The translations under genes and the position numbers were made by a program. Source: Pseudomonas gingeri (GTDB taxonomy: Bacteria > Pseudomonadota > Gammaproteobacteria > Pseudomonadales > Pseudomonadaceae). Taken from it: DNA of 64,000 nucleotides. Location: the NCBI RefSeq assembly GCF_013386165.1, contig NZ_JACAOS010000002.1, positions 124,001 to 188,000 on the forward strand, written 5' to 3'. The notes under the pieces were generated by a model. That model worked only from the letters and a program-made list of their open reading frames with translations, had not been told where the DNA came from and searched no databases. The stretch's first letter is position 1; every line of letters starts with the position of its first letter. Below are positions 19,804 to 42,384 of this stretch, in pieces.

Positions 19804-20522
19804 ATTTATACGGTTGCCAAATGCCTACGCTCCTTCTGCGTGTGATATTTCAAGGCGCGACGCGGACGTGCCTTGTTAACACCTCACCTCAATTTTTTGT
19901 GGGGCTCAAGGATCAGTGACGATGCGGTTCGACTATGCGCTCAACGGTATTGTTGTCGAAGGGGCAGCATCACGATCGAGCAGGGGCACCGCTGGCAGTC
20001 GACTGATGATGCGGTCAAACATACGATTTTCTGTTCAGCAAGACTAAATATCTCTCACGCATCAGATGCAGCTGGATTAGGCCTCTCTCTCAGTTCGACA
20101 CTTTCCATTTCGTTTAACTGGGTCAGTTGAAGCGTAATCCGATCACCTGTTGTGAGCTTTATTATTTTGGGGTGAACCCAGACATCGAATCCCATCTGCT
20201 GCTCGAATCATTAGGCCGCAAGGGCCAGATTGAATAGAGATCCACGATCACTGATACCCACTCCTGATTGAGGTTATTACAAAACCTCATACCCCCATGA
20301 CTTTTAATGGTTACACCCCCCTCCAACCCCAGTGATAAAAAAGCGCAAACACCAGCTCACTCATAAAAACAAAGAGCGTTTGCACCATGACCCAGCCCCA
20401 CTGCCGCGTCCTCGCCAGCTTCCCGCTGCGCTCTGCGTTACCCGACTTTGACCGTTCGTGTCCCAAGGCCCGTACGCGTTTCTGATCACCCTCCATTTCC
20501 CGCGTCCCTGAGATAAACACTC
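19804..20522. other. 719-base gap between surface locus and catabolic operon
   Basis: I see no gene here. A short open frame at 19873-20130 has no recognisable product. A 7-base inverted repeat, TGAGGTT (20269-20275) and AACCTCA (20283-20289), can form a hairpin. The composition changes from AT-rich on the left to GC-rich by about 20400, so this is the right-hand border of the polysaccharide region. The last 150 bases probably hold the promoter of the fae-like operon. Confidence 0.4.
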
Positions 20523-21035
20523 ATGAAAGAACAAGACCTGTACATCGGCGAAGGTTTCGAAGGCCCCGGCGTGAACGCCGCCCACATCAATATCCTGATC
20601 GGCCCGCGCAACGGTCCGGCCGGCCAGGCCTTCGCCAACAGCCTGGCGTCGCCGAGCCAGGGCCATTGCCCGTTCATGGTGATCGCCCAGCCGAATATCC
20701 CGGTCAAGCCGATGACCCTCTACGTCAACAAGGCTGCCATCGGCAGCGACTTCCACGGCAATGCCACCTGGGGCGCGTCCCAGGCCGGGATCGCCAAGGC
20801 TGTGCTCGAAGCGCTGCTCGACGGCACCCTGCCGGCCGAAGCCGAAGACGAATGGGCCATCGTCACCGCCAACTGGGTCAACCCTTCCTGCGATGACCTC
20901 GATGCCGTCTACCTGAACAACTACAACGCCTGCCGCACCGCGATCCGCGCCGCCCTGACCGGCCTGCCGGTACGCGCCCAGCTCGCCGATGTGGTCAACC
21001 ACGTCGCCAACCCTTTCTACACCCCGAAAGCCTGA
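20523..21035 (+). CDS. Formaldehyde-activating enzyme (Fae) homologue
   Basis: A 170 aa protein of the Fae family. Classical Fae condenses formaldehyde with tetrahydromethanopterin in methylotrophs. The N-terminal motif NAAHINILIGPRNGPAGQAF aligns with the Fae active-site region, and His21 falls on the catalytic His. The length matches Fae. It is the first gene of a tight set: 10 bases separate it from an aldo/keto reductase gene, followed by an aldehyde dehydrogenase and an MFS transporter. Pseudomonas is not known to make tetrahydromethanopterin, and no such gene is here, so the carrier may differ or the protein may bind another small aldehyde. The fold assignment is firm; the reaction is not. 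Confidence 0.85.
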   Translation: MKEQDLYIGEGFEGPGVNAAHINILIGPRNGPAGQAFANSLASPSQGHCPFMVIAQPNIPVKPMTLYVNKAAIGSDFHGNATWGASQAGIAKAVLEALLDGTLPAEAEDEWAIVTANWVNPSCDDLDAVYLNNYNACRTAIRAALTGLPVRAQLADVVNHVANPFYTPKA

Positions 21036-21045
21036 GGTCCGCGCC

Positions 21046-22080
21046 ATGCAATATATTCGTCTGGGCAACTCCGGCCTGCAGGTCTCCAAACTGTGCCTCG
21101 GCACCATGAACATGGGCACGCCGGACTGGAAACCGTGGATCTTCGATGAGAAGAAAAGCGAACCGATCGTCAAGCATGCGTTGGACAATGGGGTGAACTT
21201 CATCGACCTGGCGGACTTCTATTCCGCCGGTGTCGGCGAGGAAGTGGTGGGGCGCATCCTCAAGCGCCTGACCCGTCGCGAAGATATCGTGGTGACCACC
21301 AAAGTCGGCTACGGCACCCGCAGCGGCATCAACGCCAGCGGTCATTCGCGCAAACACATCATGGACAGCATCGACGCGTCCCTGAAACGCCTGGATATGG
21401 ATTACGTCGACGTCTTCATGCTGCATTACTTCGACGTGAACACCCCGGTTGAAGAAACCATGAGCGCCATGAACGATATCGTGCGTTCCGGCAAGGCGCG
21501 TTATATCGGCGTTTCGACCATGCTCACCGGGCAGTTGGCGAAGATCCTCATGGCTTGCGAGCGCAACGGCTGGGTCAAGCCGATCAACATGCAACTGCAA
21601 CTGAACTGCGCCTACCGCGAAGAAGAGCGTGAGATGCTGCCGTTCTGCCGTGACCAGGGCCTTGGTGTTTCGGTGTTCAGTCCGCTGGCCCGTGGCCTGT
21701 TGACCGGCGACGTGCAGTCGACCCGCAACCAGACCGACTTCTTTACCCAGCAGATGTACAGCGACGAAGCCTCCTTCGAGATCGCCCATTCGGTGCAGCG
21801 TGTGGCCCGCCGTCGTGGTGTCTCCAACGCGCAGATCGCCCAGTCCTGGGTGGTCAATCACCCGGGCGTGGATTGCATGCTGGTGGGCGCCGACACCACC
21901 GAGCAGTTCGACAGTGCCCTGGCGGCCCTGGAGACCCGCCTGGACGCCGACGAGCTGTACGAGCTGGAACGCAACTACACCCCGTGTGATGTGATCAACG
22001 ACTACACCGCGGGCAAACGTATCCTGCGCTCGGCCCGTCCGTCCCAGCCAGCTTTCACCCTGACCGAGGCCGTGGCATGA
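21046..22080 (+). CDS. Aldo/keto reductase
   Basis: NAD(P)H-dependent aldo/keto reductase of 344 aa with a TIM-barrel fold. The catalytic tetrad can be read: Asp/Tyr in FIDLADFYSAG, Lys in VVTTKVGYGT and His in FMLHYFDV. The cofactor-binding C-terminal part contains SPLARGLLTGDV. I start at ATG 21046, after GAGGTCCGC, because the longer frame runs back through the Fae gene. It shares four bases (ATGA) with the following aldehyde dehydrogenase, so the two work in the same pathway. It could reduce an aldehyde or ketone, or in reverse oxidise an alcohol. The family includes YhdN- and L-glyceraldehyde-3-phosphate-type members; the substrate cannot be named. Confidence 0.88.
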   Translation: MQYIRLGNSGLQVSKLCLGTMNMGTPDWKPWIFDEKKSEPIVKHALDNGVNFIDLADFYSAGVGEEVVGRILKRLTRREDIVVTTKVGYGTRSGINASGHSRKHIMDSIDASLKRLDMDYVDVFMLHYFDVNTPVEETMSAMNDIVRSGKARYIGVSTMLTGQLAKILMACERNGWVKPINMQLQLNCAYREEEREMLPFCRDQGLGVSVFSPLARGLLTGDVQSTRNQTDFFTQQMYSDEASFEIAHSVQRVARRRGVSNAQIAQSWVVNHPGVDCMLVGADTTEQFDSALAALETRLDADELYELERNYTPCDVINDYTAGKRILRSARPSQPAFTLTEAVA

Positions 22081-23510
22081 GCGAGTTGATCCGTACTGGC
22101 AACTACATCGATGGCCAATGGTCCAGCGGCGGCCCGACCTACCCGGTGCTGAACCCGGCCAATGGCGAGCTGATCACCCAGGTGCAACGCGCCGGCGCCG
22201 AGGAAACCGACCTGGCCATCGCCGCCGCCGAGCGGGCCTTGCCGGCCTGGCGCAAGCTGACCGCGAAGGAGCGCAGCGTGCGTCTCAAGCGCTGGAGCGA
22301 GCTGATGCTGAGCAACCAGCGCGAGCTAGCCACCTTGCTCAGTCGCGAACAGGGCAAGCCCCTGGCCGAAGCCATGGGCGAGGTGGTCTATGCCGCCAGT
22401 TTCCTCGAGTGGTTCGGTGAAGAAGCCAAGCGCGCCTATGGCGATGTAATCCCGAGCCACAAGGCCGATGCGCGGATTATCGTCACCAAGGAAGCCATCG
22501 GTGTGGTCGCGGCGATCACTCCGTGGAACTTCCCGCTGGCGATGGTCACCCGCAAAGTCGGCCCGGCCCTGGCCGCCGGTTGCACGATGATCCTCAAACC
22601 TTCGGAAGAGACGCCGCTGTCGGCTTTTGCCCTGGCGGTACTGGCGGAGCAAGCGGGGATTCCGGCGGGTGTGTTCAACATCGTGTCCGGCGATGCCGTG
22701 GCCATTGGCGGTGCGCTGCAGGCGTCGTCGGTGGTGCGCAAGCTGTCCTTCACCGGCTCGACCCGCACCGGCAAGTTGCTGATGCGCCAGGCTGCCGACA
22801 CCTTGAAAAAGGTTTCTCTGGAACTGGGCGGCAACGCGCCCTTTATCGTGTTCGATGACGCCGATCTGGACGCGGCCGTGAAGGGCGCGATGGCTTCGAA
22901 GTTCCGTAATACCGGGCAGACCTGTGTTTGCGTGAACCGCTTCTTTATCCAGGAGGGCGTCTACGAGGCCTTCACCACCAAGTTGGCGGAGGCGGTCAAG
23001 GCCCTGCGGGTCGGCAATGCGCTGGACGGCGAAACCGAGCAGGGGCCGCTGATCAATACGGCCGCGTTGGGCAAGGTCGAGCAGCATGTCGGCGATGCAT
23101 TGGAGAAAGGCGCCAAGCTGTTGTGCGGCGGTCGCCGTCATGCCCTGGGCGGTACCTTCTTCGAGCCGACCATCCTCACCGAAGTCGGCGATGGCATGCT
23201 GATTGCTCAGGAAGAGACATTCGGTCCGGTGGCGGCCTGCTTCCGCTTCAAGGACGAGGCCGAGGTGCTGCGTCGGGCCAATGACACGCCATTCGGCTTG
23301 TCGGCGTATTTCTACAGCCGTGATATCGGCCGGGTCTGGCGCATGGCTGAAGGCCTGGAGGCCGGGATGGTGGGGATCAACGAAGGGATCATCTCCACGG
23401 AAGTGGCGCCATTTGGTGGCATCAAGGAATCGGGCCTGGGACGTGAAGGCTCGCACTACGGTCTGGACGACTATCTGGAAGTCAAATACCTGCTGATGGG
23501 CGGTCTCTAA
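22077..23510 (+). CDS. NAD(P)-dependent aldehyde dehydrogenase (succinate-semialdehyde type)
   Basis: Aldehyde dehydrogenase of 477 aa, closest in feel to the GabD group. The catalytic Cys lies in NTGQTCVCVNR, the general-base Glu in SLELGGNAPF, and the cofactor motif FTGSTRTGK is intact. It oxidises an aldehyde to an acid with NAD(P)+. The overlap of four bases with the aldo/keto reductase and the Fae homologue two genes upstream points to detoxification or use of a small aldehyde. Whether that is formaldehyde, a hydroxyaldehyde or succinate semialdehyde is open; I doubt a simple gabD role because no gabT is next to it. Confidence 0.88.
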   Translation: MSELIRTGNYIDGQWSSGGPTYPVLNPANGELITQVQRAGAEETDLAIAAAERALPAWRKLTAKERSVRLKRWSELMLSNQRELATLLSREQGKPLAEAMGEVVYAASFLEWFGEEAKRAYGDVIPSHKADARIIVTKEAIGVVAAITPWNFPLAMVTRKVGPALAAGCTMILKPSEETPLSAFALAVLAEQAGIPAGVFNIVSGDAVAIGGALQASSVVRKLSFTGSTRTGKLLMRQAADTLKKVSLELGGNAPFIVFDDADLDAAVKGAMASKFRNTGQTCVCVNRFFIQEGVYEAFTTKLAEAVKALRVGNALDGETEQGPLINTAALGKVEQHVGDALEKGAKLLCGGRRHALGGTFFEPTILTEVGDGMLIAQEETFGPVAACFRFKDEAEVLRRANDTPFGLSAYFYSRDIGRVWRMAEGLEAGMVGINEGIISTEVAPFGGIKESGLGREGSHYGLDDYLEVKYLLMGGL

Positions 23511-23523
23511 GCCCAGAGCCCCC

Positions 23524-23624
23524 TGTAGGAGCGAGCTTGCTCGCGAAAGAGTGTCAACGATAACGCAGAGTCGCTGCGATACCGCGGTGTCCTGGCGTTC
23601 ATCGCGAGCAAGCTCGCTCCTACA
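23524..23624. repeat. REP doublet (GAGCGAGCTTGCTCGCGA type)
   Basis: Two inverted copies of a REP-like element: TGTAGGAGCGAGCTTGCTCG at 23524-23543 and its reverse complement ending at 23624 (CGAGCAAGCTCGCTCCTACA). The arrangement is typical of Pseudomonas REPINs and sits between the aldehyde dehydrogenase and MFS genes. It may also end or stabilise transcripts. Confidence 0.85.
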
Positions 23625-23683
23625 AATGGGCGGTGTTTTAACTGGTTTCACTTCTCCGTCAATAACAACAACTGGAGACGAAT

Positions 23684-25045
23684 ATGTCCGTTCAACCCGT
23701 CAAAATTGATGATCTGCCCATCGGCCGCTTTCATATCAAGATCGCTGGCCTGACCTTCGGTGCCCACTTTACCGACGGCTATATCCTCGGTCTGATCGGT
23801 ATCGCGTTCACCCTGATCAGTCCACAACTGCACCTCAATACCTTCTGGCAGGGCCTGATCGGTGCCTCGGCGCTGATCGGCCTGTTCCTTGGCAGCCTGT
23901 TTTTCGGCTGGATCTCCGATCGCCTCGGACGGCAGAAAATCTTCCTGGTCAGCTTCGTGCTGATTACCCTGGCGTCGGTGATGCAGTTCTATGCCGAAAC
24001 CGCGATGCAGCTGTTTCTCTGCCGGGTGCTGATCGGCATCGGCCTGGGCGGTGACTTCAGTGTCGGCCATGCAATGCTGGCGGAGTTCTCACCGCGTAAA
24101 CACCGTGGTGTATTACTCGGCTCGTTCAGCGTGATCTGGACCTTCGGTTATGTTGCCGCGACCTTTGTCGGCACCGCCATGCTGGGGATGGGCGATGACG
24201 CCTGGCGCTGGATGTTGGCTTCCTCGGCGATCCCCGCCGGCCTGATCCTGCTGGCGCGCATCGGCACGCCGGAATCACCGCGCTGGCTGGTCAACCAGGG
24301 GCGTGTCGCCGAGGCCCGAGCCATTGTCCGCAAGCACCTGGGCGAACACGTGGTGCTCGATGAGGAGCAAACCACGCAAACCCGCGCCGGCTACGCGGTG
24401 CTGTTCAGTCCCGAGTACCGCAAGCGCACGGCGTTCAACTGTCTGTTCTTCGTTTGCATCGTCATGCCGTATTTCGCCATCTACACCTTCCTGCCGTCGA
24501 TCCTGCAGAAGATGGGGCTGGCCGAGGGCTTTGGCACGGAGCTGATGCTCAACCTTCTGCTGATCGTCGGTGCGCTGATCGGTATCTGGTGCACGGTGAA
24601 GTTTTCCCGCCGGGGCTTCCTGATCAACTCGTTCATTATTCTCGCGGCGGCCCTGTTCCTGCTGGCGGTGTTGCCGGGCAGCGCGGCGTGGCTGATGGTG
24701 CTGGTGTTCGGGCTGTTCACCCTGGTGTTGTCGGCGGTGAGCAACCTGGTCGGGGTGTTCCCGGCAGAAAGCTTCCCGACGGACGTGCGGGCCAGCGGGA
24801 TCGGCCTGGCGACGGCGGTCAGCCGCCTGGGTTCGGCGGTGAGCACCTTCCTGTTGCCGGTGAGTGTGGCGGGAATCGGCTTGAGCCCGACCATGGGCAT
24901 CCTCGCTGCGATCCTCGCACTGGGCGCATTGATCTCCTGGGCCTGGGCGCCGGAGACCAAGTCGCTGACCTTGAGCCAGGCGTGCAAGGCCGACGAAGTA
25001 GTGCCGGGCGAAGTGCTCAGGCCGGTCAAGGCAGTGAGCATCTGA
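23684..25045 (+). CDS. MFS transporter, sugar-porter-like
   Basis: Inner-membrane transporter of 453 aa with twelve predicted helices. Family marks include GWISDRLGRQKIF after helix two, GIGLGGDFSVGHAMLAEF, and the second-half PAESFPTDVRASG that is typical of the sugar-porter/NiaP-like branch. It should import or export a small organic compound by proton coupling. The ATG follows a ribosome binding site (ACTGGAGACG). It lies after the REP doublet and in the same direction as the fae-like operon, so it is probably the carrier for that pathway. Substrate unknown; sugars, aromatic acids and nicotinate-like compounds are all moved by relatives. Confidence 0.82.
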   Translation: MSVQPVKIDDLPIGRFHIKIAGLTFGAHFTDGYILGLIGIAFTLISPQLHLNTFWQGLIGASALIGLFLGSLFFGWISDRLGRQKIFLVSFVLITLASVMQFYAETAMQLFLCRVLIGIGLGGDFSVGHAMLAEFSPRKHRGVLLGSFSVIWTFGYVAATFVGTAMLGMGDDAWRWMLASSAIPAGLILLARIGTPESPRWLVNQGRVAEARAIVRKHLGEHVVLDEEQTTQTRAGYAVLFSPEYRKRTAFNCLFFVCIVMPYFAIYTFLPSILQKMGLAEGFGTELMLNLLLIVGALIGIWCTVKFSRRGFLINSFIILAAALFLLAVLPGSAAWLMVLVFGLFTLVLSAVSNLVGVFPAESFPTDVRASGIGLATAVSRLGSAVSTFLLPVSVAGIGLSPTMGILAAILALGALISWAWAPETKSLTLSQACKADEVVPGEVLRPVKAVSI

Positions 25046-25194: not shown

Positions 25195-26070
25195 TCAGGG
25201 GTTGCTCACCAGGCTCAACCATTCGGTAAACAGCCGCACTTTCGACAACCCCTGTTTGTCGTTCGCCACATCCAGCCAATAGCCATAAGGTCCGACCACC
25301 TCCACCGGGGTGATCGGCAGCAGGCTGCCATTGGCCAGTTCCTTGACGATCATCTGCCGATCGATCACCGCCAGCCCACCGCCGGCCAGCGCGGTGTTGA
25401 TCACCTGGTCCAGGGTGCTGAATTCCAGACCCTGTCGGGCATCCACGTCCTCACGGCCCATGGCCGCCAGCCAGTTCTCCCAGACCTTGAGACGCTTGCC
25501 GTCGTGCAGGATATGCAGCAGCGGAAAGTGACGCAGGTCCGGTGCCTCGCCCTGCTCGAACAATTCCGGGCTGGCCACCGCGATATGCCGCTCCATCACC
25601 AGTAACTGGCTGCTGCAATGGCTGTCCGCTTCCAGGCCGAAACGGATCTGGCAGTCGACCTCGGCCAGGCTGTCATGACTGGCCTGGTTGGTCACGCTGA
25701 GGCTGATATCCGGGTAGCGCTGACAGAACGCCCGCAGGTGCGCCGACAGCCAGCGAGTGGCCCAGGTCGGTGGCGCGAGGATGCGCAGGCGCTGGCGCAG
25801 ATTGGGCACTCGAACGGCTTGCAGGGCGCGTTCGATATGGTCGAAGGCATCGCCCAACTGCGGCGACAGGGCGGTTCCCGATTCGGTCAGCGAAAGGCCC
25901 CGGGGCGTGCGCACGAACAGGGCGACGCCGAGGTAATCCTCCAGTTGCTTGATCTGTCGGCTGACCGCGCCCTGGGTCACGTTCAGGGACGCGGCGGCCT
26001 GGCTGAAGCTTCGATGCCGGGCGACTTCCTCGAACACGCGGAGCATGTTCAGCGAGGGCAGTTGACGCAT
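25195..26070 (-). CDS. LysR-type regulator, GcvA-like
   Basis: Transcription regulator of 291 aa. The N-terminal winged helix-turn-helix (residues about 5-65) contains FEEVARHRSFSQAAASLNVT and QGAVSRQIKQLEDYLG; the rest is the ligand-sensing domain with the GcvA-like phrase APPTWATRWL. The gene faces the fae-like/MFS operon (convergent) and lies downstream of the porin gene, separated by a terminator-like hairpin. It is not divergent from any gene, so its targets cannot be read from position. The neighbouring fae-like operon or the porin gene are both candidates. A second GcvA-like gene lies at 38416 and resembles it in the DNA-binding region. Confidence 0.85.
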   Translation of the reverse strand: MRQLPSLNMLRVFEEVARHRSFSQAAASLNVTQGAVSRQIKQLEDYLGVALFVRTPRGLSLTESGTALSPQLGDAFDHIERALQAVRVPNLRQRLRILAPPTWATRWLSAHLRAFCQRYPDISLSVTNQASHDSLAEVDCQIRFGLEADSHCSSQLLVMERHIAVASPELFEQGEAPDLRHFPLLHILHDGKRLKVWENWLAAMGREDVDARQGLEFSTLDQVINTALAGGGLAVIDRQMIVKELANGSLLPITPVEVVGPYGYWLDVANDKQGLSKVRLFTEWLSLVSNP

Positions 26071-26366: not shown

Positions 26367-27548
26367 TCAGAAGTAGTAGCCGATGTTCACATACAGCTGG
26401 TTTTTCCAGAGGTCGGTACCGCCGGCCGCGAGGCTCTGGGTATAGCTGCTGCCGCCGATGTACGGATCGTTCTTGCCGATCAGCCATTCGGTGGCGACCC
26501 AGAATTTGCTCACCGAAAACGAGGTGCCGAGGATCAAGCGTTGCGAGGTCTTGAAGTCATCCGCCGATTTGTCGAAGGCACTGTAGTTGGCATACAGCTT
26601 GATCCCGCTGATCTGGTCGAGCAGGTACTTGCCGTCGACGTCGTAGCTCAGGTCGGCGACGTAGAGGTTGCCGCGGCTGGCGACGTTGAAGGTGCCGTCA
26701 TAGCCGCCGAAGGTCACCACCTCGTTGCTGCCCGGGTTGCGTGGTGACATCTGCTGGCGCGCCGCCTGCAATTGCAGGCCCCACGGGCCGTCCTTGCCCA
26801 GGTAGTGGATGGCCACGGCATTGCGTCGCCCGTCTTCATGGGTGTCGCGGTTTTCCAGGGTCGAGGTCAGTCCCGAGATCCCCACCTCGGATTTCCAATT
26901 ACCCAGTTGCATGGCCTTGGCCAGGCGCACCACGGCGGTGTTGTGTTCCTGGTTGTCGCTGCCATCGGTCACATAGCTGTCGGCCCGGGAGACCACGGTG
27001 GAGTAGGTGTCGCCGTTGCTGGTGCCGCGCCCTTGCAGGGCCGGACGCAGGTAGAAGCCGGCTTGCAGGTTCCAGTCGCCGCTCTGCTGGATGTACTTGG
27101 CCCCGACCTGTTCCACGTCCTCCAGGCCGACAACGTTGCCCAGGGTTTCATAGAAGGTGCTGCCGAAGTAGGGTTGCAGGCCGAACGGAATCTGGTTCAG
27201 GCCGACCTGGACTTGTTGGTCAGGGTTGAATTTGTAGCCGACCCAGGCGGTTTCGGCGAACTGCACCGCGCCGATGCGATCGGTGTACTGGTAAGGGTAG
27301 GAGCGCCCGTAGAAACGGTACTTGGCGGCGGCGATCCAGGTGTCGGAGTTGTACTTGGCGGTGAGGAACGCGGTGTCGAAATCGAACTTCTGGATATCGC
27401 GATCCGGGGCGTAGTCCCAGCGATAGCGGACGGCGCCGCCGATGTCCAGGTTGTCGGTGACCTGGATGGCCATCGCGGGGGTGGAAAGGGCGCCCAACAG
27501 CGCCAGCGGGGTTAATGAGCGCAAGGCCCGGGTGGTGTTCAAATTCAT
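26367..27548 (-). CDS. Outer-membrane porin-like beta-barrel
   Basis: A 393 aa exported protein. A Sec signal peptide runs to AMA at about residue 27. The mature part has alternating hydrophobic and aromatic strands, many Tyr/Gly and short turns, and ends in NIGYYF with the terminal Phe that is recognised by the BAM machinery. It probably forms a channel for the compound taken up by the ABC importer encoded upstream on the same strand (27685-32823). It is not OprD by eye and looks nearer to the generic carbohydrate or phosphate-porin group. It is the last gene of the leftward set, and a terminator follows at 26268-26293. Confidence 0.75.
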   Translation of the reverse strand: MNLNTTRALRSLTPLALLGALSTPAMAIQVTDNLDIGGAVRYRWDYAPDRDIQKFDFDTAFLTAKYNSDTWIAAAKYRFYGRSYPYQYTDRIGAVQFAETAWVGYKFNPDQQVQVGLNQIPFGLQPYFGSTFYETLGNVVGLEDVEQVGAKYIQQSGDWNLQAGFYLRPALQGRGTSNGDTYSTVVSRADSYVTDGSDNQEHNTAVVRLAKAMQLGNWKSEVGISGLTSTLENRDTHEDGRRNAVAIHYLGKDGPWGLQLQAARQQMSPRNPGSNEVVTFGGYDGTFNVASRGNLYVADLSYDVDGKYLLDQISGIKLYANYSAFDKSADDFKTSQRLILGTSFSVSKFWVATEWLIGKNDPYIGGSSYTQSLAAGGTDLWKNQLYVNIGYYF

Positions 27549-27684: not shown

Positions 27685-29325
27685 TCAGCCGCCGGTGGCA
27701 CTCAGGCCCGCTGCTGGTCCCACCTGGGGCGGCGGTCGAACCGAAGCCCCGGGCGCGGCGGCCAACAGGGTCTGGGTATAGCTATGCCGAGGCTGCAACA
27801 GCACTTGCTCGGCGGTGCCGTACTCGACCACTTCGCCCTGGCGCATCACCGCGATGTGATCGCTGATCTGCGCTGCCACGCGCAGGTCGTGGGTGATGAA
27901 CAGGATGCTCAGGTTCAGTCGTTGCTGGAGTTCGGCGAGCAACTCCAGCACCTGTTTCTGCACCGAGACGTCCAGTGCCGAAACGCTCTCGTCGGCAATC
28001 AGGACCTGCGGGCGCATGGCCAGGGCGCGGGCGATGCCGATGCGCTGGCGCTGGCCGCCGGAGAACTGCCGGGGTTTGCGTTTCAGTGCGTCGCGCTTGA
28101 GGCCGACCTGCTCCAGCAAGTCGCCGGCTTCGATCCAGGCGTCCTTGGCCGACAGCCCGCGCAGTTGCGCGGCACGGGCGATGATGTCGCCGACCCGATG
28201 GCGCGGATTGAGCGAGCCGTAGGGGTCCTGGAAAATCATCTGGATCTGCCGCCGACCGCGGGTCAGCGCCTCGCCCTTGAGCGCGAGGAAATCGCTGTCG
28301 CCGAGCCAGACATGCCCGCTGTCGCTGTCCACCAGACGAATCGCCGCCTTGACCAGGGTGCTCTTGCCCGAGCCGGACTCACCGACAATCGCCAGGGTCT
28401 TGCCCCGTGGCAGTTGCAGCGAGACATCCTTGAGGGCACAGACCTGGCGTCCTTCGACGTGATAGGTCTTGTTCAGGTGTTCGATGCGCAACGCCATCTC
28501 ACCGTCGGCGCAGGGCACGTGCAGTTCCGGGTTCAACGCCGGGACCGCGGCAATCAGCTTGCGTGTGTAAGGGTGGCGGGGCGCCTGCAACACTTGGTCG
28601 CGCTCACCGATTTCCACCAGGCAACCGCCTTCCATCACCGCGATACGGTCGGCGATTTCCGCCACCACACCGAAGTCATGGGTGATGAACAGGATGCCGT
28701 GCTGGCCGCGACCGCGCAGGTCGCGGATCAGTTTGAGCACCTGGGCCTGGGTGGTCACGTCGAGGGCGGTGGTCGGTTCGTCGGCGATCAGCAGGTCCGG
28801 GTTCATCGCCAGGGCCATGGCGATCACCACCCGCTGGCATTGGCCGCCGGAGAGTTGATGGGGAAAGCTGTTGGCGATGCGTGGCGGCTCCGGCAACTGG
28901 GTCGACTCCAGCAGCGCGAGCATGCGTTCGCGGCGTTCCGCCGGGCCCATGTCCGGCGCGTGGATCTCGAAGATTTCCTCCACTTGCCTGCCGATGCGAA
29001 TCGCCGGGTTGAGGGCCGCCATGGGCTCCTGGAAGATCATCGCGATGCGGTTGCCACGCAGGCCGCGCAACTGCGCTTCAGGCATGCTGCAGATGTCCTC
29101 GCCGAGGAAATCGATACGCCCTTCGCTGTGACGCAGGCCCTTGGCGTAATCGCCCATGATGGCTCCGGACAGCACCGATTTGCCCGAGCCGGACTCGCCG
29201 ATCACGCAGAGGATTTCACCCTTGCGCACGTCCAGGTCGATTTTCTGGACCGCATGGCTGCGGTCCGCGCCCGGTGGCAGTTCGATGGACAACCCCTCGA
29301 CGCGCAATACTTGTTGGTTGCTCAT
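27685..29325 (-). CDS. ABC importer ATPase, fused DppD-DppF type
   Basis: A 546 aa protein with two complete nucleotide-binding domains, each with Walker A GESGSGKS (about residues 40 and 325), LSGGQ-type signature ([18 protein letters not shown]) and Walker B ([24 protein letters not shown]). It energises the peptide/opine/nickel-type importer formed by the two permeases and the family-5 binding protein encoded just upstream. The fused layout is like GsiA or YejF. The true start is ATG at 29325-29323 with AAGGAG upstream; a longer frame that continues into the permease gene is not coding. Two bases separate it from the permease stop. Confidence 0.93.
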
Positions 29326-29327
29326 AC

Positions 29328-30164
29328 TCAACTCCTTGTGCCTTTCTGGGCGTGTTCGTCCAGGCCGTCCGCCAGCAGGCTGAGGCCGAGCATCAGGGTG
29401 GAGATGGCAATGCAGGGGAAGATCACCAGGTGGGGGAACGCGATGGCCATGCTGCGGCCTTCGTTGATCATGCCGCCCCAGTCCGGGGTCGGTGGTGGCA
29501 AGCCGAGTCCGAGGAAGCCGAGGGCGCCGATCATGATCGCGGTGTAGCCGATGCGCAGGCAGAAATCGACGATCAACGGGCCGCCGCAGTTGGGCAGGAT
29601 TTCCACGGTCATGATCCGCAGCGCACCTTCGCCCTGGGTGATGGCGCTGAGCACATAGTCCCGGGAACGCAGGTCCATGGTCAGGGCGCGCATGATCCGG
29701 AAGATCGCCGGGGCGCTGGTGAAGGTCACCGCGATCAGGATGTTCAGCGCCGAGGCGCCGAGGGCGATGATGATCACGATGTACAGCACCAGCACCGGGA
29801 ACGACAGCACGGTGTCGGCGATATAGGACAGCACCGAATCGACCCAACCGCTGAAGTAGCCGGCGCACAGGCCCATGGCGATGCCGACGGCAAACGCGGT
29901 GAGGGTCGCCAGGGTCGACCAGAGCAGTACCGTACGGGTGCCCCAGATCAGTCGCGAGAGAATGTCGCGGCCCAGCACATCGGTACCCAGCAGGAAGGTC
30001 TGGCCGCTGCCGTCGTCGCCGAACGGCGTCAGCAGCGGGGTGAAGCTTTCCAGCGGATCATGGGGTGCCAGCCACGGGGCGAAGATCCCGAGGATCACCC
30101 AGCCGCCCACCAGGAACAGGCCCAGGGCCGCCAACGGGTTCTTGAATGCATGCAGAAGATTCAT
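29328..30164 (-). CDS. ABC importer permease (DppC type)
   Basis: Inner-membrane permease of 278 aa with about six helices. N-terminal part has the DppC-like segment FAPWLAPHDPLE and the loop LLGTDVLGRDILSRLIWGTR that is shared by DppC/OppC-type subunits. The EAA-type loop contacting the ATPase lies near LTMDLRSRDYVLSAI. It pairs with the DppB-type permease encoded immediately upstream (4-base overlap) and the dual ATPase downstream. The substrate class of such importers runs from di- and oligopeptides to opines, sugar-phosphates and nickel complexes, so the subunit itself says little about the cargo. Confidence 0.92.
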   Translation of the reverse strand: MNLLHAFKNPLAALGLFLVGGWVILGIFAPWLAPHDPLESFTPLLTPFGDDGSGQTFLLGTDVLGRDILSRLIWGTRTVLLWSTLATLTAFAVGIAMGLCAGYFSGWVDSVLSYIADTVLSFPVLVLYIVIIIALGASALNILIAVTFTSAPAIFRIMRALTMDLRSRDYVLSAITQGEGALRIMTVEILPNCGGPLIVDFCLRIGYTAIMIGALGFLGLGLPPPTPDWGGMINEGRSMAIAFPHLVIFPCIAISTLMLGLSLLADGLDEHAQKGTRS

Positions 30165-31114
30165 CGGGCGCTCCCGCCAAGGCTGCGCAGCGTGATGCGC
30201 GGGTTGAGCCAGGTATAGGCCAGGTCGGAGAGGATCTTGGTCGAGCCCACCACCAGTGCACTGATCATGGCGCAGGCCTCGATCAGGTAGACGTCATGGT
30301 TCAGCGAGGCGGTGTAGAGCAGCGAGCCGAAGCCTTTGTAGGCGAAGAACACCTCGACCACGATGACGTTGGACAGCAGCCACGGGATGTACAGCATGAT
30401 CACCGTGACGGGTGCGATCAGCACATTGCGCAGCGCATGGCGCAGCACGATGCGTGAGGTCGAGGCACCCTTGAGGCGGGCGGTGCGGATGTACGGCGCC
30501 TGCATCACCTCGACCATCGAGGCGCGGGTGATCCGTGCCAGGTAGCCGACGCCGAACAGGCACAACACCATCAGCGGCATCGCCAGTTGCAGGGCGCTGA
30601 AACCGTCGCTCATGCTGCTCACGCCGGGCAGCCAGTTGAGCCAGAACACAAAGATTGCCGAGACGAACACCGCGCTGGCGAAGTCCGGAATCGAGGTGGT
30701 GACGATGGACAGGAACGACACCAGGCGGTCCAGGAGCGAGCCCTGGCGAATCCCGGCCAGGACGCCGAGGGTCAGTGCCACGGGAACCATGATCAGCAGC
30801 GCGAGGCCGGCGAGCATCAGGGTCTGTCCCAGATTGGGCAGCAGCAGGTCCATCACCGGTTCACGAAAGTGCACCGAGGTGCCCCAGTGGCCACTGACGA
30901 AGTCCTTCAGCCAGATCAGGTAACGCCACAGGAACGGTTGATCGTAGCCGTGCTCGGTGAGCCAGGCGGCGCGTTGGTCGGCGGCGGAGTAGGGGCCGAG
31001 GACGTTGATCGCGACGTCCTCGATATTCAACTCCAGGGCGAAAAAAACGATCAGTGACACCGACAACAAAGTCGCTGCCAGGGCCAGTAGCTTGCGCCAC
31101 AGAAAATCAGCCAT
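30161..31114 (-). CDS. ABC importer permease (DppB type)
   Basis: Inner-membrane permease of 317 aa with six helices. It starts with the DppB-like FLWRKLLALAATLLSVSLIV followed by a periplasmic loop with HGYDQPFLWRYLIWLKDFV, the place where DppB-type subunits carry the same pattern (G-x-D-x-P). The ATPase-contact loop is STRIVLRHALRNVL near the C-terminus. It shares 4 bases with the DppC-type gene. Between this gene and the binding-protein gene lie 74 bases. Part of the leftward transport operon. Confidence 0.92.
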   Translation of the reverse strand: MADFLWRKLLALAATLLSVSLIVFFALELNIEDVAINVLGPYSAADQRAAWLTEHGYDQPFLWRYLIWLKDFVSGHWGTSVHFREPVMDLLLPNLGQTLMLAGLALLIMVPVALTLGVLAGIRQGSLLDRLVSFLSIVTTSIPDFASAVFVSAIFVFWLNWLPGVSSMSDGFSALQLAMPLMVLCLFGVGYLARITRASMVEVMQAPYIRTARLKGASTSRIVLRHALRNVLIAPVTVIMLYIPWLLSNVIVVEVFFAYKGFGSLLYTASLNHDVYLIEACAMISALVVGSTKILSDLAYTWLNPRITLRSLGGSAR

Positions 31115-31188: not shown

Positions 31189-32823
31189 TCAGGCGCTGAG
31201 CCAGGTTTCGTTCATCGGGTAGAAGTCCGATGGATGGACCTGGAAGCCTTGGACCTTCTGCGACGTGGCGGTGAACTTGTCAGCCCAGAACGGCTGGACG
31301 ATGACGCAGGCGTCCTGGAGAATCTGTTCGACGCTTTGCATCGCCAGGGAGCGCTGCTTCGGATCGACGATACCCATGGCCTTGTCCAGGGCCGCGTCGA
31401 AGGCCGGGTCGTGGTAATGGCTTTCGTTCCAGGCGCCGCCGCCGCGGTAGGCCAGCTCCAGGGACATCACCCCGAGTGGGCGGTGGGCCCAGTAGGTGAG
31501 GCTGAAGGCGGCCTTGTCCCAGATCGGCCAGTACTGGGTGGCGGGAATCACCTTGAGGTTGATGCGGATGCCGGCTTCCAGGCAGTTCTGCTGGAGGATC
31601 TGCGCGGTGTCCTGCTCGTAGCGACCCTGGGTGTTGCCGACGATCAGGTCGATGTCGATACCCTTGGGGTGCCCGGCTTCGGCCAGCAGTGCCTTGGCCT
31701 GGGCCACGTCGCGGGCACGCTTGGGCAGCGGGAAGTATTCCGGGTGCGATGGCGCCACATGGTGGTCTTCGCCCAGGGTGCCCATGCCGCGATAGGCGAT
31801 CTTGAGCATTTGCGCGTTGTCGGCGCAGAGCGCCACGGCCTTGCGGATGCGCAGGTCGTCGAAGGGCTTCTGGTCCACGGCCATGCGCATGACCACGGTC
31901 TGCGCCGATTTGCAGGTCAGCAGCTTGGCGTTGGGCAGGCGCTTGGCCAGGTCCAGTTCGGCCACGGTAACGCGGTACAAGACGTCGACTTGTCCGGCTT
32001 GCAGGGCGGCCAGTTGGGTGGACACGTCGGTGCCCATGTCGACATAACGCAACTCGTCGAGGTAGGCCGGCTTGCCCCAGTAGTCGGCGCGCTTGGCGAA
32101 GGTGGCTTCCTTGTTCACCGCGAACGAGCCGAGTTTGAAAGGACCGGTGCCGACGGGGTTTTTCGACCAGTCGTCACCGGCCTTGAAGCTGCGATGAACA
32201 ATGGCGCAGGTGAAGGCATTGAGCATTTCCGGGATCGCCAGGATCGGCCGCTTGAGCACCAGCTTGAACTGGTAAGGCCCGAGTTTTTCGAATGAGACGA
32301 TGTCCTGGAACGCGGTGCGGTTGACCGACTTGGAGTCGGCGCCGGTCCAGCGTTGGAAGTTGTGCTCGACGTCGTCGGCGTTGAAGGCGTCGCCGTTGCT
32401 CCACTTGACGTCCTGGCGCAGGTTGAAGACCCACTCCTTGAGATCGTCCGAGGGTTTCCAGCTTTCAGCCAGGTACGGGTGGGTGATGTTCTGGGCGTCG
32501 ACCCAGGTCAGGTATTCCAGGCTGTTGCGCATCAGGTTCGAGGCTTCGATCCAGGTGATGAGCATCGGGTCCTGGATTTCCTGGATGGCGCAGGCAAAAC
32601 GCAGGCTGCCGCCGTTGCGCGGGGTCAGGGTTTCGCCGGCCTGGGCAGGGCCACTGAGCAAGGCTGAACCGACGAAGGTGCTGGCGGTGGCGGCGGTGAT
32701 GCCCAGCAGCGTGGCAGTGTGCAGGAACTGACGACGGCTGATCTGGCCGCTTTTGGCCTGGATGCACAGGTCTGCTACGGCTGAATGCGGCGCAGAGCCG
32801 TCCAGGGTCTTTAAGTCTTTCAT
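31189..32823 (-). CDS. ABC importer periplasmic binding protein, family 5
   Basis: A 544 aa substrate-binding protein of the DppA/OppA cluster. The N-terminus has a twin-arginine signal (SRRQFLHTATLL at about residues 29-40, cleavage after AQA near 62), so the protein is probably folded before export. The mature part holds the family feature YLAESWKPSDDLKEWVFNLR. I place the start at ATG 32823 because GGAGAGGCT lies just upstream; the frame before it lacks a better site. It would capture the cargo of the importer in the periplasm. The M24 enzyme and the oxygenase encoded upstream (33432 and 34836) probably act on that cargo inside the cell. Confidence 0.92.
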   Translation of the reverse strand: MKDLKTLDGSAPHSAVADLCIQAKSGQISRRQFLHTATLLGITAATASTFVGSALLSGPAQAGETLTPRNGGSLRFACAIQEIQDPMLITWIEASNLMRNSLEYLTWVDAQNITHPYLAESWKPSDDLKEWVFNLRQDVKWSNGDAFNADDVEHNFQRWTGADSKSVNRTAFQDIVSFEKLGPYQFKLVLKRPILAIPEMLNAFTCAIVHRSFKAGDDWSKNPVGTGPFKLGSFAVNKEATFAKRADYWGKPAYLDELRYVDMGTDVSTQLAALQAGQVDVLYRVTVAELDLAKRLPNAKLLTCKSAQTVVMRMAVDQKPFDDLRIRKAVALCADNAQMLKIAYRGMGTLGEDHHVAPSHPEYFPLPKRARDVAQAKALLAEAGHPKGIDIDLIVGNTQGRYEQDTAQILQQNCLEAGIRINLKVIPATQYWPIWDKAAFSLTYWAHRPLGVMSLELAYRGGGAWNESHYHDPAFDAALDKAMGIVDPKQRSLAMQSVEQILQDACVIVQPFWADKFTATSQKVQGFQVHPSDFYPMNETWLSA

Positions 32824-34835: not shown

Positions 34836-35717
34836 TCAGTCGAGCAATTGGTCGCTGCGCACCCGGCTGCGTTCGGCTTGCAGGTGAGCTTCGGAGAGCC
34901 GCCCGTAGAGCTGCTTGGTGCGCTCGGCGCGGCCGATGATTCCGGGCTTTTCCGAGTAGGCGAAGATCGCGGTATTGCGTTCCACCGCACCTTCGACACG
35001 GGTCACCCGGTGCACTGAAAAGCGCCCTTTGAAGATCTGCAGATCGCCGGGATTGAGCTCCAGGTACTTGACCCGGCTGCGATCCTCACCCCGTACCACC
35101 TTGCCCACTGCGCCGAGGTTTTCCGCCGTGCGCGAGCGAATCATCGGCGCGTACTCGAACAGGCCGCCGGCCTCGGGCTTCTGGGTCATCATGCTGACAA
35201 TGAATTCGTTGGTGTCGAAGTGCCAAGGCTGCTGGGTGCCCTCCGGCATCACGTTGATCACCAGGCCGGCAAAGGGGTCGGCATATTCGAAAATCTCCGG
35301 TTCCCCCAGGCAGGCGCCGATGAAACGTTTCATCATCGGCGAGACGTAGAGCCGGTGAATGATCGCGTCCGGGGCGATCATGTCGCGGGTCACGAAGCCG
35401 CTGGTGCGCTCCATGAAGGTGCGGCGCGGGTCTTCAGCCGGCAGGGTGGGATCGTCTTCGGTGAAGTAGGCGTTGACCTTGCGCACCGAATAAAAGGTCT
35501 TGTCCGAGAGCGCCTGGCCCTCGAGGCGAGCCTGTTCCAGCACTTCGGGACGCAGGAAATTCTTCAGCAGGCAGCAACCGTCGACAGCCAGTTCGGCCCG
35601 GGCGTGATCGATCAGTGCCTGTAATTGGACATGGCCCGAATCATGAATGGGATAACGTTCGGTGTTGACGATATCGCTGATATCGCCCACTTCGGCATCG
35701 GCAAGTTGAAGGCTCAT
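34836..35717 (-). CDS. Fe(II)/2-oxoglutarate oxygenase, PhyH/HalD-like
   Basis: A 293 aa cupin-fold oxygenase of the phytanoyl-CoA dioxygenase superfamily. The iron triad is readable: His166 and Asp168 in QPWHFDTNE and the distal His236 in FSVHRVTRVEG, with Arg247 as a likely 2-oxoglutarate ligand. Because Asp168 is kept, it should hydroxylate or demethylate; halogenases of the BesD/HalD group have Gly or Ala there. It would modify the compound imported by the ABC system encoded downstream, before or after the M24 enzyme acts. Divergent from the LysR gene at 35857 with about 140 bases between, a normal layout for LysR control. Confidence 0.78.
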   Translation of the reverse strand: MSLQLADAEVGDISDIVNTERYPIHDSGHVQLQALIDHARAELAVDGCCLLKNFLRPEVLEQARLEGQALSDKTFYSVRKVNAYFTEDDPTLPAEDPRRTFMERTSGFVTRDMIAPDAIIHRLYVSPMMKRFIGACLGEPEIFEYADPFAGLVINVMPEGTQQPWHFDTNEFIVSMMTQKPEAGGLFEYAPMIRSRTAENLGAVGKVVRGEDRSRVKYLELNPGDLQIFKGRFSVHRVTRVEGAVERNTAIFAYSEKPGIIGRAERTKQLYGRLSEAHLQAERSRVRSDQLLD

Positions 35718-37944: not shown

Positions 37945-38415
37945 TACGCGGCCCGAAAAGTAAGTTGTTAGAAAAATCTGCAACACAATGGGGCGAAAGT
38001 AGTGATGACGCCCAATGTAAGTGCGCAGAAGTTTTTGATTTAAAGTGATAGGGCAGGGTAGCGTTTATAAGTTGAAAATAACCAGTGCTGAATACTCATG
38101 AGGCGTGTGCGAAATACTCGTGCTATTTATCTTTTAACGACAGTTTTACTGCAAAAGCGACCTTGAACGCTTACACCTGCTGTCAGGAGCGCCCCCTCTG
38201 TAGGAGCGAGCTTGCTCGCGATGGATCTGAGAGCGCCACGGTACACCAGGCCCTCAGCGGTATCGTTGACGACCATCGCGAGCAAGCTCGCTCCTACAGG
38301 GGGGGCGTCGTCGCCGGCAGGGTTATTTTGTAGGACGATAGACAAAAAGGAATGTTACCCACCCCCGGCACCATGCGATGCTTGGCACTGTCCGGCCCTT
38401 GGTGAGTGTCTTTTC
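37945..38415. other. Gap between divergent MFS and LysR genes, with REP doublet
   Basis: No coding region is visible. It should hold the promoters of the MFS gene (leftward) and the LysR gene (rightward). A REP doublet fills 38199-38298. Confidence 0.4.
38199..38298. repeat. REP doublet (GAGCGAGCTTGCTCGCGA type)
   Basis: TGTAGGAGCGAGCTTGCTCG at 38199-38218 and its exact reverse complement ending at 38298. It is the same subtype as the doublet at 23524-23624. Confidence 0.87.
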
Positions 38416-39363
38416 TTGAAACGCAAAATGCCCGCGCTCAATGCGCTCAAAGCCTTCGAAGTCGCTGGTAGCACCGGCAGTTTTACCCGTGCTGCCGAGC
38501 TGCTGAACGTGACCCAGAGCGCCGTCAGCCGCCAGGTCCGTCAGCTTGAGGAGCAACTGGGCGAAAGCCTGCTGGAGCGCCGTCATCACCACCTTGAATT
38601 GACCACTGCCGGGCGTGTCCTGCTGCGTGCGCTGCATCAGTCCTTCGACAAGATCGAGATGACCGTGCGCGGCATCCAGGAGAAGAACCACGCCAACCGC
38701 CTGCGCATCAATGCGCCGCCGACCTTTACCAGTCGCTGGTTGCTGCCACGCCTGGGGCGCCTGCGCCAGCAGCACCCGGGGCTGGAGTTGAGCATCACCA
38801 CGCGCCTGCAGGACAGCCTGGCCGAAACCAGTACCCTGGATTGCGCGATCCGCTTTGGCGACGGTGAATGGGATGGCCTGGACAGCTCGCTGCTGATGCA
38901 TGAGCGGCATATCGCCGTCTGTTCGCCGAGCCTGTATGCCCGCGAACTGAGCGGGCAGGAAGAGATCGACCTGAATCGCCTGACCCTGCTGCATGTGCTG
39001 GCCAAGGAAGACCAGCGTTACCTGACCTGGAAACACTGGCTGGACGCGGCGCGCATCAGTGGTGTCGATACCCTGAGCGGTTATGAGTTCGACCTGCTGG
39101 ACCTGGCGATCGGTGCCGCCGTCGACGGCCTGGGCATCACCATCGCCGACTGGCACATGGTGGCCGGCGAGCTGGCCAGCGGGCAGTTGACCCAGGTGCT
39201 CAACGTGCACGTGGATGGGCACCAGTCCTATTGGCTGGTGACACGCCAGGAGCAGACACAGATTCCCCAGTTGCAGATTTTCAGCCAGTGGTTGCAGGAA
39301 GAACTGGAGCTGGCGCGGCGGCACCTGGAGCCGTCCACGGCGGCGCTGATGCCGGTTATCTGA
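38416..39363 (+). CDS. LysR-type regulator, GcvA-like
   Basis: LysR regulator of about 315 aa. The DNA-binding part contains FEVAGSTGSFTRAAELLNVT and SAVSRQVRQLEEQLG, then the GcvA-like NAPPTFTSRWLLPRL. The start may be TTG 38416 (with GGTGAG at 38401) or ATG 38428, four residues further on. It lies in the same direction as, and 119 bases before, an aldehyde dehydrogenase gene that starts a small catabolic operon, so it probably regulates that operon. It shares the fold and DNA-reading helix with the regulator at 25195. Confidence 0.85.
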   Translation: MKRKMPALNALKAFEVAGSTGSFTRAAELLNVTQSAVSRQVRQLEEQLGESLLERRHHHLELTTAGRVLLRALHQSFDKIEMTVRGIQEKNHANRLRINAPPTFTSRWLLPRLGRLRQQHPGLELSITTRLQDSLAETSTLDCAIRFGDGEWDGLDSSLLMHERHIAVCSPSLYARELSGQEEIDLNRLTLLHVLAKEDQRYLTWKHWLDAARISGVDTLSGYEFDLLDLAIGAAVDGLGITIADWHMVAGELASGQLTQVLNVHVDGHQSYWLVTRQEQTQIPQLQIFSQWLQEELELARRHLEPSTAALMPVI

Positions 39364-39482: not shown

Positions 39483-40907
39483 ATGTCTTCCCAGCGCAAC
39501 TTTGTTAACGGTCAATTCGTCGAGCCCACCGGCACTGCCCGGATCGCAGTCTATAACCCGGCCACCGAAGCCTTGATCGACCACGTGCCGGCCGCCACCG
39601 CCGCAGAGGCGATCCAGGCCGTCGACGTCGCCGACGCCGCCCAGAGGATCTGGGGCAAGCTCACCAGTATCCAGCGCGCCGAGCACCTGCGCAGTTTTGC
39701 CGACGCCCTTGAAGCCCAGGCCGAAGATATCGGCCAGGCCCTGGCGGCAGAGTCCGGCAAGAGCGTCGCCGACGCCAGCAACGAAGCCCGTTATGCGGCG
39801 CAGATCACCCGCTATCACGCCGAATGGGCGCGGCGTATCGAAGGCGAGATCATTCCCAGCGACACCCCGGACGAAAACCTGTTTCTGCAGCGCGAGCCCA
39901 TCGGCGTCGTCGCCTGCCTGATCCCGTTCAACTACCCGGTCTACACCCTGCTGCGCAAGATCGCTCCCGCGCTGATCGCCGGCAACACCGTGGTGGTCCG
40001 TCCGAGCAATAACACACCGATCTCGGCGTTTGCCATCGCCCGGGCCGTGCAGCAATCGAGTCTGCCTGCCGGGGTGTTGAATATCCTCACCATGGACCAC
40101 GACACCGCCGCCAGCGTCTGTACCCACAAGGCCGTCGGTCTGATCACCCTGACCGGTAGCGTCAACGCCGGGCGTATCGTGCTCGACTACTGCAAGGCCA
40201 ATATCGCCAAGCCGTCCCTGGAACTGGGCGGCAAGACCCCGGCGATCATCGAGGCCGATGCCGACCTGGAAGCGGCCGCCAGCGCCATCGTAGCGTCCAA
40301 GACCACCCACTGCGGGCAGTTGTGCACGGCGGTGGAGCGGGTCTATGTCCAGGAAAGCGTGTACGAGCGTTTCCTCGCGCTGCTCAAGGAGAAAATCAGC
40401 GCGGTACGGTTTGGCGACCGCGCGGTGGACGCCAGCCTGATGGGCCCGCTGGTCAATGCCAGTTCGCGGCGCAACATCCACGCCATGGTCGAACGTGCCG
40501 TGGCTGCGGGTGCGGTGCTGGAGACCGGCGGTGTGATCCCGCAAGGTCCCGGGCATTTCTACCCGCCGACCCTGCTCAGCGGTTGCCGCCAGGACATGGA
40601 GATCATCCAGGAAGAAATCTTCGGCCCGGTCCTGCCGGTGCTCAAGTACCGTGATATCGACGAGGCGCTGGCGATGGCCAACGATCACCAGTTCGGCCTG
40701 TCGTCGGTGCTCTATACCGAGAACTACCGCACGGCGATGAAAGTGGCGAATGCCATCGAGTCCGGCGAGCTGTACGTCAACCGGACCCCGGCCGACCCTT
40801 ACCAGGGTTTCCACGCCGGCTGGAAACGCTCCGGCCTGGGCGGCGATGACGGCAAGCACGGCATGCTCGAATTCACCCAGACCCGACTGGTGGTCATGAA
40901 GTATTGA
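39483..40907 (+). CDS. Aldehyde dehydrogenase, AldA-like
   Basis: NAD-dependent aldehyde dehydrogenase of 474 aa, nearest to the lactaldehyde/glycolaldehyde group (AldA). It has the general-base Glu in SLELGGKTPAII, the catalytic Cys in THCGQLCTAVER, and the C-terminal phrase TPADPYQGFHAGWKRSG that is typical of AldA-like enzymes. It starts an apparent operon with an MFS transporter, an enolase-superfamily protein and a GMC oxidoreductase. The set would oxidise an alcohol or aldehyde of a sugar or sugar acid. The ribosome binding site is weak (AAGAAAAGTACGAGAACC), and the substrate is not evident. Confidence 0.85.
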   Translation: MSSQRNFVNGQFVEPTGTARIAVYNPATEALIDHVPAATAAEAIQAVDVADAAQRIWGKLTSIQRAEHLRSFADALEAQAEDIGQALAAESGKSVADASNEARYAAQITRYHAEWARRIEGEIIPSDTPDENLFLQREPIGVVACLIPFNYPVYTLLRKIAPALIAGNTVVVRPSNNTPISAFAIARAVQQSSLPAGVLNILTMDHDTAASVCTHKAVGLITLTGSVNAGRIVLDYCKANIAKPSLELGGKTPAIIEADADLEAAASAIVASKTTHCGQLCTAVERVYVQESVYERFLALLKEKISAVRFGDRAVDASLMGPLVNASSRRNIHAMVERAVAAGAVLETGGVIPQGPGHFYPPTLLSGCRQDMEIIQEEIFGPVLPVLKYRDIDEALAMANDHQFGLSSVLYTENYRTAMKVANAIESGELYVNRTPADPYQGFHAGWKRSGLGGDDGKHGMLEFTQTRLVVMKY

Positions 40908-42383: not shown

Positions 42384-42384
42384 G

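Follow-up and report, generated by a model that had tools for sequence, protein, structure and literature searches.

A Fae-family protein encoded with an aldo/keto reductase and an SSADH-like dehydrogenase in Pseudomonas gingeri may act without tetrahydromethanopterin

In the chemistry of the formaldehyde-activating enzyme Fae, an aldehyde and an amine are joined or split, with water lost or gained, and to our knowledge a single activity has been established for the Fae fold, namely that of Fae1, which we take to be EC 4.2.1.147. The glutathione-dependent formaldehyde-activating enzyme Gfa is a different, zinc-dependent protein family. The texts consulted that name a 'formaldehyde-activating' protein in fungi or in non-methylotrophs dealt with Gfa, and roseobacters are said to lack fae. 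Fae1 and mch are described as markers of tetrahydromethanopterin (H4MPT)-linked formaldehyde oxidation that are known also in non-methylotrophs (PMC3763247), and Methyloversatilis is reported to grow on methanol and on methylamine without needing its fae2 or fae3 (PMC5023235). Here we analyse a 64,000-nucleotide stretch of the Pseudomonas gingeri genome (contig NZ_JACAOS010000002.1, positions 124,001 to 188,000; hereafter the window), in which a Fae-family protein of 170 amino acids (aa) is encoded at positions 20523..21035 on the + strand, directly ahead of genes for an aldo/keto reductase (AKR) and an aldehyde dehydrogenase (ALDH) resembling succinic semialdehyde dehydrogenase (SSADH). Titles and abstract starts among the matches listed from one open-access library contained no paper on the clade to which this protein belongs.

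The homology to Fae put forward in the original prediction is real: the protein matches PF08714 at full length (165.2 bits, cut-off 27; profile positions 1-158 of 159), exceeds the cut-off of the NCBIfam equivalog TIGR03126 (136.3 against 118.05 bits), and has as its nearest solved relative the Fae of Methylobacterium extorquens (1y5y, E 4e-24), with the catalytic His aligned. The gene is under purifying selection, with a median ratio of nonsynonymous to synonymous substitution rates (dN/dS) of 0.09 (73 of 79 usable pairs, dS > 0.2) and, over the 79 usable comparisons, median proportions of nonsynonymous (pN) and synonymous (pS) differences of 0.04 and 0.35. Three P. gingeri strains carry a Fae 99% identical to that of the window, and a search of the whole genome containing the window (G000; 7.65 Mb, 54 contigs) returned it as the sole PF08714 match. 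An AlphaFold2 model built from 21 near-identical sequences of the Pseudomonas set defined below had a pLDDT of 44 and a pTM of 0.40, too poor for a fold search.

The fae stop codon is followed after 10 nt by the start of the AKR gene (21046..22080, +; 344 aa; PF00248, 230 bits), whose product has DepB (8hwn, E 1.5e-55) as its closest solved chain, and the AKR stop is overlapped by the start of the ALDH gene (22077..23510, +; 477 aa; PF00171). The order Fae-AKR-ALDH, with the AKR second, is kept in 80/80 named loci (one ALDH runs past a contig end), these being the best 80 of 218 relatives, 79 labelled Pseudomonas and one a metagenome-assembled genome labelled Paucimonas (the Pseudomonas set). 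The three genes are thus as tightly coupled as had been claimed, and the coordinates first given for them and for the following major facilitator superfamily (MFS) gene are correct. The MFS transporter itself (23684..25045, +; 453 aa; profile matches) had also been counted in the operon but is not tightly coupled: it lies 173 nt beyond the ALDH gene, behind a 22-bp inverted repeat recognised by eye (23525-23546 / 23602-23623; presumably of the Pseudomonas REP kind), and as an optional part it is present in 63 and missing from 12 of the 75 scored loci, 5 of the 80 being unscorable. Its nearest models are aromatic-acid/H+ symport, sugar porter and organic-cation families, every score falling under the cut-off. 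Two decayed Pseudomonas operons were also seen (L147, L148), one in genome G023, where no ALDH match remains and the AKR is broken up, and one in G121, where only a Fae fragment is left.

Genes of the methanopterin pathway, none of which the original prediction had seen near fae, were sought genome-wide as it had suggested for mch and ftr: neither of these, nor the gene for beta-RFAP synthase, was found in the window genome, mtdB and fhc not having been searched for. Fae occurs in 58/298 sampled Pseudomonas genomes (in G121 as a fragment only), and mch was found in 0 of these 58. Beta-RFAP synthase and ftr were likewise not found in G000, G441, G461, G612, G614, G023 and G121, and both were detected in the positive controls G542, G539 and G649. 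In a sample of the phylum, 22/398 genomes had a match above the Fae cut-off, and in a further genome, G364, a match containing stops fell below it; mch was present in 17 of these 23, exactly those whose best Fae match reached at least 211 bits, and missing from G000, G441, G461, G612 and G614, whose only Fae match scored 163-171 bits, as well as from G364. The pattern recurs in the family of G612, taken as Burkholderiaceae on the grounds that, in the tree described below, proteins from named Burkholderia and Caballeronia cluster with those of the family. Fae was found there in 76/249 genomes, assigned to Fae1 or to the clade of the window protein by score range, with 16 loci from 15 genomes read for residues: all 42 genomes with a Fae1-range score (at least 230 bits) have mch, and 30 of the 31 with a clade-range score (160-186 bits) but none in the Fae1 range are without it. 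The exception, G1169, carries an extra partial Fae match of 196 bits along with a partial mch. Both Fae kinds occur together in 21 genomes, and three genomes have fragments only, one of them with mch.

The separation is also seen in phylogeny. In a 39-row tree, Fae sequences of Pseudomonas, Burkholderia-like bacteria and Ensifer group together (support 97/95), and with that of Streptomyces clavuligerus at 88/90, both the Fae1 group (96/94) and the Fae2/3 group (100/99) lying apart from this clade; Ensifer and Streptomyces sit on long branches, the program flagged a meeting of long branches, and the root is a midpoint root. In the numbering of the M. extorquens chain, we take His21 to be the catalytic acid and Asp23, Leu52, Lys70, Thr72 and Gln87 to bind substrate. 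All 19 clade rows (nine for Pseudomonas and G441, eight for Burkholderia-like bacteria and G461, one each for Ensifer and Streptomyces) keep His21, Lys70 and Gln87 and carry Asn23, His78, Trp83 and Asn163 in place of the Asp23, Gln78, Phe83 and His163 found in 19/19 Fae1 rows, and a further 16/16 loci of the G612 family have the same clade residues. The catalytic His of the A-H-I motif, His21, is therefore present in the window protein and in 35/35 sampled members; among the presumed substrate residues, position 23 is always Asn, positions 52 and 72 vary, and Lys70 and Gln87 are kept. If these residue roles hold, the catalytic acid would be retained and part of the pterin site altered. Fifteen of 289 genomes in another class of this phylum, that of G301, match the window Fae at 26-37% identity, as against 45% for the S. 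clavuligerus member, and were left out of the tree. Another Fae homologue, in Caballeronia sp. Lep1P3 (L198, 32673-33206), stands beside an isocitrate lyase/PEP mutase-family gene and groups with Fae2/3, with Met replacing the catalytic His (residue read by eye).

On these grounds (tree, site residues and genome context) the protein, a member of the Fae family, appears to fall outside the H4MPT-dependent Fae1 enzymes, despite passing the NCBIfam equivalog cut-off.

The dehydrogenase of the operon scores 695 bits against the SSADH model TIGR01780, above its cut-off of 646, and 739 bits against the GabD equivalog PRK11241, below the cut-off of 828. It keeps the TRK, (F/Y)RNxGQTC and GREGS stretches of the substrate site in five solved SSADHs (4v6h has ARK for TRK). 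Since these motifs are retained, its substrate aldehyde probably bears a carboxylate, and formaldehyde would then be unlikely as the main substrate.

A second group of genes accompanies the operon at some distance. In the window it comprises a GcvA-like LysR regulator (38221..39363, +; exact start uncertain), an AldA-type aldehyde dehydrogenase (39483..40907, +; NCBIfam PRK10090, 524 bits, cut-off 500), an MFS transporter (41073..42383, +; profile scan), an enolase-superfamily enzyme of the MR/MLE type (42376..43602, +; PF13378/PF02746) whose nearest solved relatives are entries named by family only, and a choline-dehydrogenase-like GMC oxidoreductase (43662..45269, +; start uncertain; PF00732/PF05199) that scores 582 bits against the NCBIfam choline dehydrogenase subfamily, below its cut-off of 605; gene order was examined here and in six other stretches. 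The enolase (E <= 1e-150) occurs in 54/298 Pseudomonas genomes, 53 of them Fae-positive, and in 1/240 Fae-negative ones. The two genes lie within 25 kb of each other in 36 of the 53 (module 10.7-22.3 kb from fae), 36-37 kb apart in 2, more than 500 kb apart on the same contig in 2, and on separate contigs in 13. Linkage alone is insufficient to explain the pairing, because part of the 53 pairs are far apart or on different contigs, the count itself being inflated by shared ancestry and open to linkage concealed by contig breaks. At least six of eight Burkholderia/Caballeronia plasmid records with a 68-71% identical Fae have the enolase within 15 kb, as judged from the enolase matches listed (40 of 86). 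By eye, the enolase-superfamily protein has G-T-H at the metal-ligand motif position, where we would assume D-x-H. On Rhizobiaceae plasmids (L196, L199) a GMC-enolase-ALDH module is accompanied by an oxidoreductase of the hydroxyacid dehydrogenase type that shares 40-41% identity with the one at the S. clavuligerus fae locus.

Common to Pseudomonas, Burkholderia/Caballeronia, Ensifer and Streptomyces are Fae, an AKR or hydroxyacid dehydrogenase, and an SSADH. The Fae-AKR-ALDH unit is present in 16/16 fetched loci of the G612 family, and in Ensifer adhaerens CTYH.Ch1 the order is AKR-Fae-SSADH, adjoined by a Dpp-type importer 58-68% identical to one encoded in the window. The latter is a Dpp/Opp-type ABC importer, here an alternative transporter, made up of a two-domain ATPase (27685..29370, -; 61% to the homologue beside the Ensifer Fae operon), two permeases (29328..31114, -; genes at 29328-30164 and 30161-31114, 68% and 65% to the Ensifer pair) and a substrate-binding protein (31189..32823, -; 58%). 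In seven loci of one G612-family sub-lineage (L200-L205, L213), the Fae operon is separated from the LysR/GMC genes by those of a ProU/OpuA-type importer: permease and ATPase of the betaine family were detected in 7/7, and by BLAST the binding protein is next to the operon in 4/7 (L200, L201, L203, L213), L202, L204 and L205 having a homologue only farther away (62-63%). The L200 binding protein matches PF04069 OpuAC with 184 bits, and the L200 ATPase exceeds the cut-off of the betaine/proline/choline family (349 vs 327 bits). In S. clavuligerus, fae begins within the last part of a gene for an OpuAC-family binding protein (188 bits); about 0.8 kb separates fae from the genes that come after it, which encode a hydroxyacid-dehydrogenase-family oxidoreductase and an SSADH. 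A betaine-family importer thus accompanies the operon in these seven loci and in S. clavuligerus, and not in the window, Ensifer or nine further loci; the importers may tentatively hint at a betaine- or quaternary-amine-like class of substrate.

With evenly balanced confidence, we read the protein as an enzyme of the Fae family that does not use H4MPT and would carry out one aldehyde step in the catabolism of an imported multi-carbon compound. A job different from that of Fae1 is probable, since the cofactor genes searched for were not found and the gene travels with catabolic enzymes; the SSADH residues, the GMC/AldA/enolase module and the betaine-family importers in turn point to a multi-carbon pathway rather than to simple formaldehyde handling. 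Because a multi-carbon pathway is indicated, formaldehyde and glycolaldehyde, suggested as inducers in the original prediction, may not be the right ones. In the scheme we propose, whose order of steps is itself conjectural, the compound would enter through an outer-membrane protein plus the MFS or ABC importer; the GMC oxidoreductase and the AldA-type dehydrogenase could convert an alcohol to an acid, and the enolase-superfamily enzyme might catalyse an elimination or epimerisation. The Fae-like enzyme and the AKR would act on a carbonyl intermediate, the AKR (or the hydroxyacid dehydrogenase in Streptomyces) interconverting the matching alcohol and aldehyde, and the SSADH-like enzyme would oxidise the resulting carboxylated aldehyde to a dicarboxylate. 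If the substrate is indeed betaine-like, Fae chemistry, with aldehyde and amine joined or split, could be applied to it and not to formaldehyde and pterin. Such unchanged chemistry on a pathway intermediate may be the simplest repurposing, yet amine-aldehyde chemistry for this particular protein is something we would put forward only as a speculative proposal. Slightly more credible, if still doubtful, is the broader idea that the Fae fold was recruited for a carbinolamine-type or related carbonyl reaction in an undescribed pathway for betaine-like compounds, in which case 'formaldehyde-activating enzyme' would be a wrong annotation.

Several observations weigh against such a pathway. Five Fae-positive Pseudomonas genomes are without the enolase, the co-occurrence figures count species and not independent events, and in Rhizobiaceae and Leisingera the enolase/GMC module was seen in loci whose displayed stretch has no annotated fae. 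Neither a GMC nor an enolase gene was seen in 16.5 kb of the S. clavuligerus locus, and there a hydroxyacid dehydrogenase replaces the AKR. As for the importers, the L200 binding protein scores only 85 bits against ProX (cut-off 215) and that of S. clavuligerus 186 bits against OsmF (cut-off 400), no betaine-type importer was detected by BLAST in the other 9 of the 16 fetched G612-family loci, and the importers of Pseudomonas and Ensifer are of the Dpp or MFS type. Finally, the part that the conserved ALDH stretches play in binding carboxylated aldehydes is our assumption.

Other functions were considered against the same evidence. Formaldehyde freed within the pathway, for instance by N-demethylation, might be joined by the Fae-like protein to tetrahydrofolate or a thiol; in the Fae site, His21, Lys70 and Gln87 are retained, and release of formaldehyde from a betaine-like substrate is possible in view of what is generally known of betaine demethylation. 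We nevertheless regard this as unlikely, as the scanned genes of the two modules include no demethylase or C1 enzyme, the dehydrogenase is SSADH-like and not a formaldehyde dehydrogenase, and Asp23, presumed to lie in the substrate site, is Asn in 35/35 members, and the pterin head is also found in folate. Formaldehyde detoxification was set aside for related reasons (a dehydrogenase of SSADH type, no C1 genes seen), as were sulfoquinovose and carnitine pathways, for which there were general resemblances only. Less probable again is a role as hydro-lyase or aldolase, by which what the enolase-superfamily enzyme makes would become the carboxylated aldehyde that the SSADH-like enzyme uses: a pathway running from an acid-sugar-type dehydratase to a semialdehyde dehydrogenase would be expected to need such a step, no recognisable 2-keto-3-deoxy-acid aldolase or dehydratase is present among the scanned genes of both modules, and the two modules occur together in 53 genomes, but the S. 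clavuligerus fae locus has its SSADH without any enolase gene in 16.5 kb, and Gly at the position of the expected Asp metal ligand (by eye) makes the enolase protein's own chemistry uncertain.

That the protein is not a catalyst at all but an aldehyde-binding sensor, carrier or protective protein seems improbable. The dispensable fae2 and fae3 of Methyloversatilis (PMC5023235) indicate that the family extends beyond the known reaction; against this, His21, Lys70 and Gln87 are kept in every one of the 35 sampled members and the gene sits within an enzyme operon that has a separate LysR regulator close by. Most improbable of all is an ordinary Fae using H4MPT acquired from other microbes, for although the protein passes the TIGR03126 equivalog cut-off (136 vs 118 bits), neither mch nor ftr is there to use the product, the site residues are altered and the clade is separate.

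The operon is set among further conserved neighbours. Convergent to the Fae operon is a gene for a GcvA-like LysR-type regulator (25195..26070, -; PF00126/PF03466), a clustered neighbour in 74/80 named loci and likely the regulator of the operon; beyond it is a conserved protein (26367..27548, -) that matches neither Pfam nor NCBIfam, looks porin-like by eye and was found by clustering in 55/80 named loci. The Dpp-type ABC ATPase lies past this porin-like gene in 12/12 MFS-less loci versus 22/43 judgeable MFS-bearing ones (Fisher p 0.002; 20 MFS-bearing loci without a visible porin-like gene are excluded). Upstream of fae, the palindrome TCAT-N6-ATGA (20287..20300, no strand) in a conserved block is a candidate LysR operator: it occurs within 600 bp upstream of fae in 55/76 scorable loci of the Pseudomonas set versus 59/1600 random windows, and was not found at the same upstream place in 10/10 tested loci of other genera. 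As an operator shared with the ABC operon it was rejected, since a second copy at 33363, ahead of the ABC operon in the window, has no counterpart in L160 or L164, and co-regulation of the two operons is therefore not claimed. Farther on, an M24 metalloenzyme gene (33432-34658, -), DddP-like, adjoins one for a distant HalD/PhyH-type dioxygenase (34836-35717, -); the pair recurs in the G071 stretch (L160) and not in the G277 stretch (L164). The M24 protein scores 325 bits as DddP, the DMSP lyase, against a cut-off of 600, and is treated as accessory.

Compared with the described systems, the window ALDH is like GabD-type SSADH in subfamily score and substrate-site motifs and unlike it in scoring under the GabD equivalog cut-off, so that its exact substrate may differ. 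With Gfa, the window Fae has only the name in common. Fae2/Fae3-type paralogues, a label we assigned by score, resemble it in being of the Fae family outside the known reaction, but in the six rows sampled position 21 is Glu or Met and residue 124 is followed by an insert of five residues, whereas the window clade has His21 and no insert; moreover, Fae2/Fae3-type matches in the phylum sample come from genomes that also have Fae1 and mch, which the window clade is mostly without. Clade proteins are labelled 'formaldehyde-activating enzyme' in plasmid records, and their presence above the equivalog cut-off in genomes without mch is a new caveat for Fae as a marker. If the pathway reading is true, the Fae fold would gain a second reaction, and soil- and plant-associated bacteria would prove to have a new catabolic route. 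With Fae1 of Methylobacterium/Methylorubrum extorquens (1y5y) the window Fae shares family, length, catalytic His, Lys70 and Gln87, and it is 33.5% identical to the mch-adjacent Fae of Azoarcus sp. KH32C; it differs from Fae1 by Asn23, His78, Trp83 and Asn163, by genomes in which mch, ftr and beta-RFAP synthase were not found, and by its separate clade and its AKR/SSADH operon.

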